DNA from: a virus
Direction: 5' to 3' (one strand)
Virus record (IMG/VR): IMGVR_UViG_3300027985_000678
Location: 1 to 21,964 of that record
Length of the DNA: 21,964 nucleotides
In this document: piece after piece, positions 3,087 to 6,265 of the stretch
Position numbering within the stretch: position 1 is the first letter of the stretch
Layout of the letters: every line of letters starts with the position of its first letter
Notes under the pieces: model-generated
Told to the model about the DNA's origin: nothing
The model's input: the letters and a program-made list of their open reading frames with translations, nothing else
Database searches by the model: none
Program-made: the position numbers and the translations under genes

Positions 3087-4452
3087 AGTTCATACCACAC
3101 GATTACCAGCGATACGCGACCGATTATATCAAGAGAAAGCCTGTTGCTGCTGTATTCCTCGATATGGGCTTGGGTTAGGTAAGACTGTGTTAACGCTTAC
3201 TGCCATTGCCGACTTGCTGTTTGACAGCTTCGAAGCACACAGGATTTTAGTTATCGCCCCGCTTCGGGTCGCTCGTGATACCTGGCCGGACGAACTTGGC
3301 AAGTGGGAGCATCTATCAGATTTGCAGTTTTCGGTAGCGGTGGGTACAGAAGCCGAACGGAAAGCGGCGCTACGGGTAAAAGCTGATATTTACATCATCA
3401 ACCGAGAGAATGTCCAGTGGCTCATCGAGGAAAGCGGCATCCCTTTTGACTTTGACACTTTGGTGATTGACGAACTTTCCAGTTTCAAAAACCACCAGAC
3501 AAAGCGGTTCAGGTCGCTGATGAAGATTCGTCCAAAGTTCAAGCGAATTATCGGGTTAACAGGAACACCAAGTAGCAACGGCCTGATGGATTTATGGGCT
3601 GAGTACCGCATTCTCGACATGGGTCAGCGGCTTGGGAGGTTCATCGGGCAGTACCGCACAGCATATTTCTCCCCCGATAAACGGAACGGTCAAGCTATAT
3701 TCAGCTACATGCCTTTGCCATTTGCCGAAAAAGAAATCTACCGCAAAATTGCCGATATTACTATTTCCATGAAATCCACCGACCACTTAACCATGCCGGA
3801 ACTGGTGACTGCTGAATATCCCGTGCGATTATCGGATAAAGAGCGTCAGCGGTACGATGAACTTCGACAGGACTTAGTGTTGAAACTGGTGAGCGGCGAT
3901 GTCACTGCTGCCAATGCTGCAGCCCTATCGAACAAACTGTGTCAGATGGCGAATGGTGCGGTTTATGATGACGACGGCGAAGTCCACCACATCCATGACC
4001 GCAAGTTGGATGCCCTTGAGGATTTAATCGAAGCCGCCAATGGGAAGCCGGTCCTTGTGGCGTACTGGTTCAAGCACGATTTGGAACGAATATCAGAAAG
4101 GCTGAAAGACCGACATATTCCGTTTGCCAAGATGGATACATCGGAAAGCATCGCAAGGTGGAACAATGGCGAACTTCCGGTGGCACTTATCCATCCCGCT
4201 TCTGCCGGACACGGCTTGAATCTCCAGTCAGGTGGCTCCACGATTATATGGTTCGGCTTGACTTGGAGCTTGGAGTTGTATCAGCAGACCAATGCGAGGC
4301 TTTGGCGGCAAGGCCAAGAATCCGATACCGTGGTAATCCATCACCTCATCACAAAGGATACCATCGACGAAAAGATTATGTCGGCTCTGAAAAAGAAAGA
4401 CAAAACACAGTCCGCATTAATTGATGCAGTAAAAGCGGACTTAAAAATCTAA
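3083..4452 (+). pseudogene. SNF2-family DEAD-like helicase, frameshifted at Walker A
   Basis: The natural start is the ATG at 3083, which overlaps the VRR-NUC stop and has AGGAGG at 3068-3073. From there the frame reads MKFIPHDYQRYATDY, then AAVFLDMGLG, and hits TAG at 3176-3178, exactly inside the expected Walker A sequence GLGKT. The rest of the helicase continues in the -1 frame to 4452: APLRVARDTW (motif Ia), VIDELSSFKN (motif II), GLTGTPSSNGL (motif III), and a C-terminal lobe with SAGHGLNLQSGG and QTNARLWRQGQ (motifs V and VI). The data fit a 5-bp insertion, a near-tandem TTGGG/TTAGG, in an otherwise intact gene of about 450 residues. A GTG at 3073 could open the downstream frame, but its first ~30 residues are out-of-frame nonsense. 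It is either a recent inactivation or a sequencing error; the rest of the gene shows no decay. Confidence 0.85.
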
Positions 4453-4492
4453 GACAATCTGCGACAAAATGTGACAATCCGTGCCAATCCGA
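4453..4492. repeat. Four tandem 10-bp units, consensus GACAATCCGT
   Basis: Directly after the helicase stop there are four units with exact 10-bp spacing: GACAATCTGC at 4453, GACAAAATGT at 4463, GACAATCCGT at 4473 and GCCAATCCGA at 4483. One helical turn per unit would put the boxes on one face of the DNA, as in a cooperative binding site. The phase with GTGCCAATCC resembles the GTGCCGATT word of the upstream array. A TATAAT at 4502-4507 follows, only 16 bases before the next start codon. Confidence 0.6.
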
Positions 4493-4522: not shown

Positions 4523-4717
4523 ATGAATCCTTATGAAGAATTAGCAAATGCCATCGTTCTGCAAGCGGTCAAGGACTATCGATTGCATGATGATGAAAAG
4601 GAGCTTGCCAGAATTGAGCGTTTCTTTCGTTCAGGCTGGTTTGGTGTTCTGACGAGCATTGACCCAGAAATGCTGATAGCCAAGCTGAGAAAGGAAAAGG
4701 TGCGCTATGAATACTAA
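4523..4717 (+). CDS. Small phage protein of unknown function
   Basis: A 64-residue protein starting MNPYEELANAIVLQAVKDYR. It is acidic to neutral and predicted helical, with no cysteines, membrane segment or recognisable catalytic motif. The pattern of LHDDEKELARIERFFRSGWF followed by LTSIDPEMLIAKLRKE resembles the short conserved proteins often found just upstream of DUF1492 regulators in clostridial prophages, but I do not know a function. The ATG at 4523 is preferred because GGAGGT lies at 4510-4515. An upstream in-frame start at 4481 would read through the 10-bp repeats. Its 3' end overlaps the next gene by 11 bases, so the two are probably translated together. Confidence 0.75.
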   Translation: MNPYEELANAIVLQAVKDYRLHDDEKELARIERFFRSGWFGVLTSIDPEMLIAKLRKEKVRYEY

Positions 4718-5141
4718 AACATACCTTTCTCAGGCCCGCTATCTCGATATGCGCATCAAATCCAAGCTTCAGCAAATAGACTCTCTAAACGAACTGGCGA
4801 CAAACTGTTCATCGGTCTTGACAGGTATGCCCAGGAATCCCAGCCCTTCTACCTCTCGCATGGCTGATGCCATTTGTAAAATCATCGACTTGCAGAACGA
4901 AATCAATCATGACATAGACACGCTGGTTGACCTCAAAAAAGAAATCATGGGTGTCATCAAAGCTGTGGTGAATCCGGAGCATCAAACTCTCTTAGAGAAA
5001 CGCTACCTCTGTTTCCTCTCTTGGGAGAAGATTGCAGTGGATATGGGCTACGACCTGCGTTATACCCACAAACTCCACATTCGGGCGCTGGAGGAATGTA
5101 TAATTCCCACTTCTCCTGAAGTGGACACGAAAAGACACTGA
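4707..5141 (+). CDS. DUF1492 sigma-like / ArpU-like phage transcription regulator
   Basis: A 144-residue protein starting MNTKTYLSQARYLDMRIKSK. Residues 1-95 form a long helical region with LTGMPRNPSPSTSRMADAI, a signature I associate with DUF1492. Residues 96-135 (LLEKRYLCFLSWEKIAVDMG, then YTHKLHIRALEE) look like a sigma-70 region 4 type helix-turn-helix. Members of this group sit at the end of the early region and are thought to activate late transcription, as do the related ArpU and RinA proteins. Placement here fits: the gene is the last before the packaging module, and its 3' end carries a GACAC box array just upstream of a TATAAT. An AAGGAAAAGG tract precedes the ATG. DNA targets are inferred from position only. 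Confidence 0.85.
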   Translation: MNTKTYLSQARYLDMRIKSKLQQIDSLNELATNCSSVLTGMPRNPSPSTSRMADAICKIIDLQNEINHDIDTLVDLKKEIMGVIKAVVNPEHQTLLEKRYLCFLSWEKIAVDMGYDLRYTHKLHIRALEECIIPTSPEVDTKRH

Positions 5142-5173
5142 AAGACACCTGCTTCTTATGATAGTATTATAAT
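5124..5173 (+). promoter_or_regulatory. Candidate activated late promoter: three GACAC boxes plus TATAAT
   Basis: GACAC occurs at 5124-5128, 5134-5138 and 5144-5148, exactly 10 bp apart, overlapping the DUF1492 stop. A perfect TATAAT lies at 5168-5173. There is no TTGACA at the proper spacing; the last GACAC box stands near the -35 position (about 18 bp upstream of the -10). A good -10 without a -35 but with phased boxes upstream is the expected look of a promoter that needs an activator, plausibly the adjacent DUF1492 protein. Transcription would enter the HNH-terminase module. Confidence 0.55.
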
Positions 5174-5194
5174 CAAGAAAGTAGAATCCAAAAG

Positions 5195-5230
5195 AGCCTT
5201 GTGGGAGCAATCCCGCAGGGCTTTCTTTAT
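5195..5230 (+). terminator. Hairpin with GCAA tetraloop and T-rich tail
   Basis: AGCCTTGTGGGA (5195-5206) pairs with TCCCGCAGGGCT (5211-5222) through 12 base pairs including two G-U, closed by a GCAA loop (5207-5210) and followed by TTCTTTATG. The shape is that of an intrinsic terminator with a weak T tail. It starts only about 15 bases after the predicted start site of the TATAAT promoter. It may therefore end early transcripts, act as an attenuator of the late transcript, or both. Confidence 0.6.
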
Positions 5231-5250: not shown

Positions 5251-5610
5251 ATGCCGTACAAACCTAAACGTCCTTGTGCTTACCCCGGCTGCGGTCGGCT
5301 TGCTGATGGCGAGCAATACTGCGCCGAACATATAAAGGTTGTTACCAAACAATACAACCAGTACGAACGCGACCCCGCTTCCAACAAACGATATGGTCGT
5401 GCCTGGAAACGCATTCGTGACCGCTACATCAAGTCCCATCCTCTTTGTGAGGAGTGCGAGAAACAAGGCAGGCTTACCCCTGCCGAGGAAGTGCACCACA
5501 TTCGCCCGCTCTCTAAGGGCGGCGGCAACGAGAAGAGCAACCTCATGGCTCTTTGTAAATCCTGTCACTCTCGAATCACTGTCGAGAGCGGCGACCGGTG
5601 GGGGCGGTAA
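5251..5610 (+). CDS. HNH endonuclease of the packaging module
   Basis: A 119-residue HNH protein. The core is LCEECEKQGRL (C66, C69), VHHIRPLSKGG (H82, H83), N96 and LCKSCHSRI (C102, C105, H106), giving the betabetaalpha-metal fold with a structural zinc. The N-terminus carries a second cysteine/histidine set (C9, C14, C24, H27), which may bind another zinc. HNH proteins directly upstream of small and large terminase are known in HK97-like cos phages to take part in terminase-directed cleavage at cos, and the position here (just before the small terminase gene) fits that role. The ATG at 5251 follows GAGGAGGTGAACTC. It is the first gene of the late operon after the candidate promoter. A free homing-nuclease role is less likely. 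Confidence 0.9.
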   Translation: MPYKPKRPCAYPGCGRLADGEQYCAEHIKVVTKQYNQYERDPASNKRYGRAWKRIRDRYIKSHPLCEECEKQGRLTPAEEVHHIRPLSKGGGNEKSNLMALCKSCHSRITVESGDRWGR

Positions 5611-5690: not shown

Positions 5691-5707
5691 GGTCTAAAAG
5701 GAGTGTG

Positions 5708-6265
5708 ATGAATATGGCGAAAGACGGCACCAGCAGAGGCGGTGCTCGTGTCGGTGCGGGTGCAAAAAAGAAGCCGCTCGCCGACAAAATATCAACTGGC
5801 AACCCCGGCGGCAGAAAGTTGACCGTTATGGAGTTTTCGGAGACTGCAGACCTCAAAGGTCAGGAGATGCTCGAGCCAAATAAAATGCTCGAAGCTGTAC
5901 AAAAAGACGGCAAGACGCTCGTGGCGAGTGAAATATATAAATCCACATGGGTATGGCTGAACGAACGTGGCTGTTCCGCTCTCGTTTCTCCACAGCTTTT
6001 AGAGCGCTATGCCATGAGCGTGGCGCGATGGATTCAGTGCGAGGAGGCTGTGACCGAATATGGCTTTCTGGCAAAGCACCCTACTACGGGTAATGCGATT
6101 CAAAGTCCGTATGTGGCGATGGGCCAGAACTATATGAACCAGACAAACCGCTTGTGGATGGAGATATTTCAAATCGTCAAGGAAAACTGCACCGGCGAAT
6201 ACAACGGTGCAAATCCCCAAGACGATGTAATGGAGCGGCTATTATCTGCTCGGAAAGGAAAATAA
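5708..6265 (+). CDS. terS: Terminase small subunit (P27-like)
   Basis: A 185-residue protein of the P27-type small terminase group, which recognises the packaging site and loads the large terminase. The N-terminus is basic and glycine-rich (KDGTSRGGARVGAGAKKK), followed by NPGGRKLTVMEF. The conserved central block runs from STWVWLNERGCSALVSPQLL through YAMSVARWIQCEEAV to GFLAKHPTTGNAIQSPYV, ending in the NRLWMEIFQIVKEN helix. AAGGAG at 5698-5703 could serve the ATG at 5708 (4-base spacing) or the one at 5714 (10-base spacing); a GTG at 5705 is too close. The structured element lies immediately upstream. Only one base separates its stop from the SAM synthetase start, so the cargo genes are in the same transcript. 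Confidence 0.92.
   Translation: MNMAKDGTSRGGARVGAGAKKKPLADKISTGNPGGRKLTVMEFSETADLKGQEMLEPNKMLEAVQKDGKTLVASEIYKSTWVWLNERGCSALVSPQLLERYAMSVARWIQCEEAVTEYGFLAKHPTTGNAIQSPYVAMGQNYMNQTNRLWMEIFQIVKENCTGEYNGANPQDDVMERLLSARKGK

Follow-up and report, generated by a model that had tools for sequence, protein, structure and literature searches.

The locus studied here raises the question of how the late genes of a virus could be switched on from a site that lies partly inside the gene of their own regulator. A sequence-only reading of this DNA had proposed that three GACAC boxes, exactly 10 bp apart and straddling the stop codon of a DUF1492 regulator gene, precede a TATAAT without a proper -35 and mark an activated late promoter. 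We analyzed the whole stretch of 21,964 nucleotides (IMG/VR virus record IMGVR_UViG_3300027985_000678, positions 1 to 21,964), hereafter the window, together with related loci. The best explanation, to which we assign a probability of about 0.74, is that positions 5124-5229 are the late promoter of a temperate Firmicutes phage, activated by the regulator whose gene overlaps the promoter. The genes in this part of the window follow the order SNF2-type helicase, small phrog_7024 gene, regulator, HNH endonuclease and terminase small subunit (Table 1); across 100 loci, HNH is a neighbor in 95, TerS in 86 and the helicase in 81.

Table 1. Features of the regulator and promoter region, in window coordinates.
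Feature	Position	Strand	Remarks
Late transcriptional regulator gene	4707..5141	+	144 aa; phrog_36 / DUF1492-type
Codons for recognition helix DLRYTHKLH, residues 116-124	5052..5078	+	
Box 1, GACAC	5124..5128	+	core-31 register; coding
Box 2, GACAC	5134..5138	+	core-21 register; coding
Regulator TGA stop codon	5139..5141	+	within box array
Box 3, GACAC	5144..5148	+	core-11 register; downstream of stop codon
Invariant 22-bp promoter core, TRTGNTA.TATTATAATRGC type	5155..5176	+	motif search
TATGA + TAGTAT, extended -10-like element (TRTGN + hexamer)	5157..5167	+	abuts TATAAT
TATAAT, most likely -10	5168..5173	+	
Terminator-like hairpin 5194-5223 with T-rich tail, predicted late leader	5194..5229	+	covariation
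HNH endonuclease, first late gene	5251..5610	+	profile matches
Terminase small subunit (terS)	5705..6265	+	profile matches

The three boxes and their exact spacing across the stop codon were confirmed. Single GACAC words are unremarkable in the window (36 found versus 32.8 expected); the phased triple occurs once, and in none of 100 dinucleotide shuffles. The second box falls in a register that holds a degenerate box in several other word classes, and the third occupies the place where a -35 element for TATAAT would be. The absence of a proper -35 held as well: nothing resembling TTGACA is present at 16-18 bp upstream of 5168, where GACACC at 18 bp matches at 2 of 6 positions, and the best pair in the promoter scan, AAGACA-17 bp-TATTAT, has a weaker -10 than TATAAT. 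The 22-bp core, which the sequence-only reading had missed, emerged when motifs were sought from an anchor downstream of the array. This core is the same for every box word, as expected if it is read by the host polymerase. It has a single match in the window, of 22.7 bits (the next best scores 3.3), and in 22 larger phage records the pattern was found at most once each, besides two stray matches without an array, which is consistent with one such promoter per phage. The element at 5157-5167 may act as an extended -10; across the family, its TRTGN-hexamer and the adjoining TATAAT (5157-5173) are about equally conserved. Transcription would be expected to start near 5180, or near 5174 if the upstream hexamer is in use.

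The sequence-only reading would have been refuted by a lack of boxes downstream of related regulator genes; arrays in the same register are present there. Five scans produced 398 loci with a regulator match, a sixth scan served as the hold-out set, and the register was measured in 100 non-redundant loci. Between stop-25 and stop+40, the autocorrelation in relatives reaches z of 14.6 at lag 10 and 7.7 at lag 20; neither lag stands out in the coding and downstream flanks. In the 100 loci, most word classes have their boxes at core-31, -21 and -11, and some are displaced by 1 bp. An identical 5-mer is repeated at lag 20 in 72 of these loci and at lag 10 in 52, compared to 1, 3, 0 and 0 loci for lags 9, 11, 19 and 21. 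Because the box columns were left out when the core motif was trained, this register is not imposed by the procedure. About 28% of the collected loci, mostly divergent or truncated, have no recognizable core or module, and when 786 whole genomes from two orders were screened for more arrays, one match was obtained, the known prophage of Lachnoclostridium phytofermentans (L103). Distant homologues are encoded by phages of Gardnerella, Streptococcus, Erysipelothrix, Terrisporobacter, Faecalibacterium and Ruminococcus; several named phages have repeats in 10- or 11-bp phase downstream of the gene, as judged by eye without statistical scoring. For example, by eye, the Gardnerella phage vB_Gva_AB1 has TGGCA four times, and the Faecalibacterium phage Aster has an 11-bp GTCAGT series.

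Two of the three boxes are coding, and the repeats might accordingly be thought to reflect a constrained C-terminal peptide (VDTKRH), or else chance. Such an origin is hardly credible: the third box here, and all boxes in many relatives, lie after the stop codon; L048 and L053 keep the boxes, i.e., the same DNA, in a different reading frame; the register follows the core, not the stop codon; and the shuffles contain no such triple. Both the peptide and the chance origin are thereby refuted. It should be noted that the bare GACAC triple was rejected as a marker of the module, since in a large collection it is mostly a product of chance: used alone as a search key, it gave at least 120 matches in viral contigs, and among the matches listed, a regulator is present in three and the core in two.

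The box word differs between lineages while the phased geometry persists, and the word can be read from residues 118-119 of the regulator: RY goes with GACAC, RW with GCCAC, RH with GTCAC, RN with TTCAC, QH with GAGAGT (QY being mixed), HH or HY with GATACC, DN with TTACAG, and KW with GTTCC. In partial Mantel tests, box similarity correlates with the helix given the N-terminus (r = 0.63, p = 0.001); for the N-terminal 101 residues given the helix, the values are r = 0.03 and p = 0.29. When all protein columns are ranked by covariation with the box word, residues 118, 119, 116 and 122 come out on top, and residues 125-138, which are encoded closer to the array than the helix, are not among the leading columns. 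Box bases 3 and 5 associate with residue 118, and base 1 and the preceding base with residue 119. Thus, by computational covariation, specificity for the repeats tracks the C-terminal part of the protein. Arrays that lie 0.5-2.2 kb away from the regulator gene obey the code as well, so linkage on the DNA does not by itself account for it.

Words called from DNA only agree with residues 118-119 in all 84 loci that could be assigned (16 were unassigned), the word lists behind this agreement having been drawn up after the data were seen. In the hold-out set, the expected word was found in 22 of 26 new arrays of known classes. The four misses comprise two SIQHIYRIR and two SLRW regulators, suggesting that residues 116 and 124 probably matter too. 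In L145, L553 and L576, the helix is SIQHIY-R-L/I-R (H124 replaced by R), and the box series reads GATAGG..GTTAG..GTTCAT despite QH at 118-119. A DNA-only scan of viral contigs for the GAGAGT class gave 60 arrays; a regulator is present in 56 of the 58 with enough upstream DNA, and the helix, where readable, is QH in 55 of 55. None of the phylogenetically independent pairs contradicts the expectation, the well-supported branches being too few for significance. On this sequence evidence, reading of the boxes through the C-terminal recognition helix is well supported. The proposal that DUF1492 proteins bind such boxes thus gains from the covariation of helix and word, with the amendment that GACAC is one specificity class and not a property of DUF1492 proteins overall.

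The same comparisons bear on whether the array might instead be a packaging site, i.e., a cos or pac element bound by TerS or by the HNH nuclease. The array adjoins the HNH and terS genes, and repeated boxes are known in packaging sites. However, the box word shows no link to HNH (partial r = -0.08), TerS (-0.05) or the helicase, whereas its partial correlation with the regulator helix given HNH or TerS is 0.65, and the array is always coupled to the -10 core. We consider a packaging site very improbable and reject it, as neither TerS nor HNH covaries with the word.

A second series in 10-bp phase, GACAATCTGC GACAAAATGT GACAATCCGT GCCAATCCGA, lies at 4453-4492, directly after the helicase stop codon, and is followed by a CCGAG...TCGGAGG segment. 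The idea that this GACAA-type series is a further binding site for the late regulator was rejected, since regulators of the RY, HH, QH, RH and KW classes are all preceded by identical GACAA words. The series is kept in many relatives whatever the regulator class, and therefore another factor or function must account for it.

The regulator itself matches the phrog_36 "transcriptional regulator" profile (E = 2e-23), as do all 76 aligned members of the family. Pfam DUF1492 (PF07374) matches the window protein below the curated cut-off (14.2 versus 21.5 bits, E = 0.05) and is matched by 68 of the 76 members at E<=0.01, with a best value of 2.4e-11; Pfam Sigma70_r4 is matched by nine members, and the Q-like phrog_79 by only one (E = 3.8e-4). 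A sequence search of the PDB gave weak matches only, including region-4 parts of sigma factors (E = 0.05-0.12), and no member of the Q family was among them. The AlphaFold2 model (pLDDT 86) has two long N-terminal helices, 3-38 and 51-85, joined by a low-confidence tip loop, and a confident C-terminal domain of three helices at 90-130. Foldseek likens this domain to sigma-E region 4 on -35 DNA (2h27; probability 0.99, TMt 0.64), all E-values being above 0.1. The model and the structural likeness are in line with the earlier claim of a sigma region 4-like helix-turn-helix (HTH). For the N-terminal helical hairpin, the search for structural relatives gave generic coiled-coil matches only, with Z below 8. 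A near-invariant MP..P motif (residues about 39-46, window 4820-4855) is located in the tip loop of the predicted hairpin and is a candidate polymerase contact.

These results suggest the following course of events. The C-terminal HTH would read the three boxes, with one helix for each 10-bp turn, via residues 118, 119, 116 and 122, a step for which the covariation provides good support. The N-terminal helical hairpin may let protomers align along one DNA face, one protomer per box, so that the proximal box would take the -35 position. Host sigma-A RNA polymerase, without a -35 contact but finding the invariant core, would be recruited to the promoter, and would transcribe HNH-terS and the late genes, traversing the conserved leader hairpin on its way. 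We infer, accordingly, a regulator that acts on transcription initiation. With the site and its reader confined to about 100 bp, the switch travels as a single cassette, and one recombination step can change its specificity.

The leader hairpin, also missed by the sequence-only reading, is odd for a simple activated promoter, as it is terminator-like and comes right after the promoter. In the window, its z is -3.6. A stable hairpin with a T-rich tail downstream of the promoter was found in 95 of 99 representatives, compared to 6 of 99 shuffles; it starts 17-20 nt past the -10 of the core (interquartile range, 99 representatives), and 10 of the 11 stem pairs have compensatory changes. The hairpin also accompanies promoters whose array lies apart from the regulator gene, and thus is not merely the terminator of that gene.

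Conservation of the hairpin keeps open a possible Q-like role in antitermination. Under such a scheme, the regulator would dock on the array and load onto the polymerase at or just after the promoter, so that the hairpin at 5194-5229 is resisted, initiation being partly constitutive from the extended -10. Apart from the hairpin, its compensatory changes and its persistence with detached promoters, the two adjoining -10-like hexamers favor this scheme, and a comparable hairpin lies between the late promoter and the first late gene in phi11 and phi13. The published phi13 reporter, from -200 to +50, would include this hairpin and, consequently, initiation and antitermination are not told apart by the reporter data; this is our reading and not that of the phi13 authors. 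There are also precedents: 21Q binds direct repeats in its late promoter through a sigma-R4-like HTH, and the polymerase passes a terminator just downstream; AlpA acts alike, reading a single element with a terminator just downstream (PMC6606751, PMC9371919). Conversely, no word class has a consensus -35, from which weak basal initiation is expected, in contrast to the complete promoters of Q; the binding sites of Q are placed between -35 and -10 on different DNA faces, whereas the present array is further upstream and on one face; the two hexamers are offset by 6 bp, too little for a classical sigma-dependent pause; and where Q has its nozzle, the regulator has an N-terminal half that is a long helical hairpin. 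Furthermore, the arrays of L074 and L077 are without a downstream hairpin, and in TP901-1 one hairpin is far downstream and another, seen by eye, falls between the repeats and the -10, i.e., precedes the -10. Antitermination fits the hairpin better than activation does, and the array position and the missing -35 worse. We regard it as unlikely, and activation of initiation and antitermination could both be true. A bolder and quite doubtful version is that the regulator is a Gram-positive counterpart of Q, with a two-residue code that reads the array and a polymerase that passes the leader hairpin; if so, Ltr "activators" such as those of phi11 and phi13 might partly be antiterminators.

Several loci differ from the window in the number or setting of their promoters. 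L069/L070 and L074/L077 carry at least two copies of the array and core per phage downstream of the regulator, some of them without the leader hairpin, and possibly have more than one late promoter. On the minus strand of L681 (about 3100-3210), two late promoters of different word classes stand head to tail, a GATACC array with core followed by a GAGAGT array with core and hairpin; this 5.9 kb contig contains no regulator, and a major head protein is encoded downstream of the promoters. L681, a single case and a fragment, may be a phage satellite that responds to two helper phages. In L665, a GAGAGT-type array with core (locus position 6128-6177) has no regulator in the 5.8 kb upstream, and the next large downstream ORF is primase-like by eye.

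Taken together, a widespread family of phage late switches gains a compact, testable protein-DNA recognition code, in which two residues predict the DNA word and the word predicts the regulator class. Late promoters in gut and rumen phages become annotatable from sequence alone, and the code indicates which phages might be able to cross-activate one another, besides providing orthogonal switches. How late transcription is controlled in Gram-positive phages becomes a direct question in view of the conserved hairpin.

Compared to known systems, the HTH fold resembles the three-helix sigma-70 region 4 and the -35 domains of ECF sigma factors; unlike these, the regulator has no region 2, is not a sigma factor, and faces three boxes versus one -35. 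With 21Q and AlpA, the locus shares a terminator-like element downstream of the promoter, as indicated by sequence and covariation. It differs in that its boxes end at core-7, not between the -35 and -10 of a complete sigma-70 promoter, and, apart from the single phrog_79 match, no sequence relation to these proteins was seen.

The closest likeness is to the Ltr superfamily (TP901-1 Alt, phi11 RinA, phi13 Ltr/LtrC, ArpU and Ltrb/DUF1492), where, too, a small regulator gene just before the packaging genes has direct repeats upstream of a -10 at its 3' end, and the late operon is downstream. The founding Ltr paper (Quiles-Puchalt 2013) reportedly describes late regulators whose own gene carries repeats at its 3' end. 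The activated late promoter of the sequence-only reading gained support from the matching of reader and box, and belongs to a kind of system that was already known. The searchable literature, which includes few subscription papers, gave no account of the 10-bp register, of the helix-to-word code or of a promoter-hairpin module, and this silence is weak evidence; the helical code and the module appear to be new. Regulators of S. thermophilus labelled DUF1492 are assigned to Ltrb (PMC5601072). In phi13, the late regulator depends on repeats located at its own gene's 3' end, and both the repeats and a TATA box are required (PMC13123087); these repeats are 18 bp long, versus short boxes in exact 10-bp phase and fixed register in the window. 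The Alt repeats of TP901-1 are reported at -76 to -32 (PMC13123087), and box 3 of the window likewise ends at -32, given a start at 5180; by eye, the repeat spacing in TP901-1 and phi11 is nearer 11 bp, versus 10 bp in the window. Unlike the known Ltr systems, the present one combines a word that is readable from residues 118-119 with a core that is invariant and a leader hairpin that covaries.
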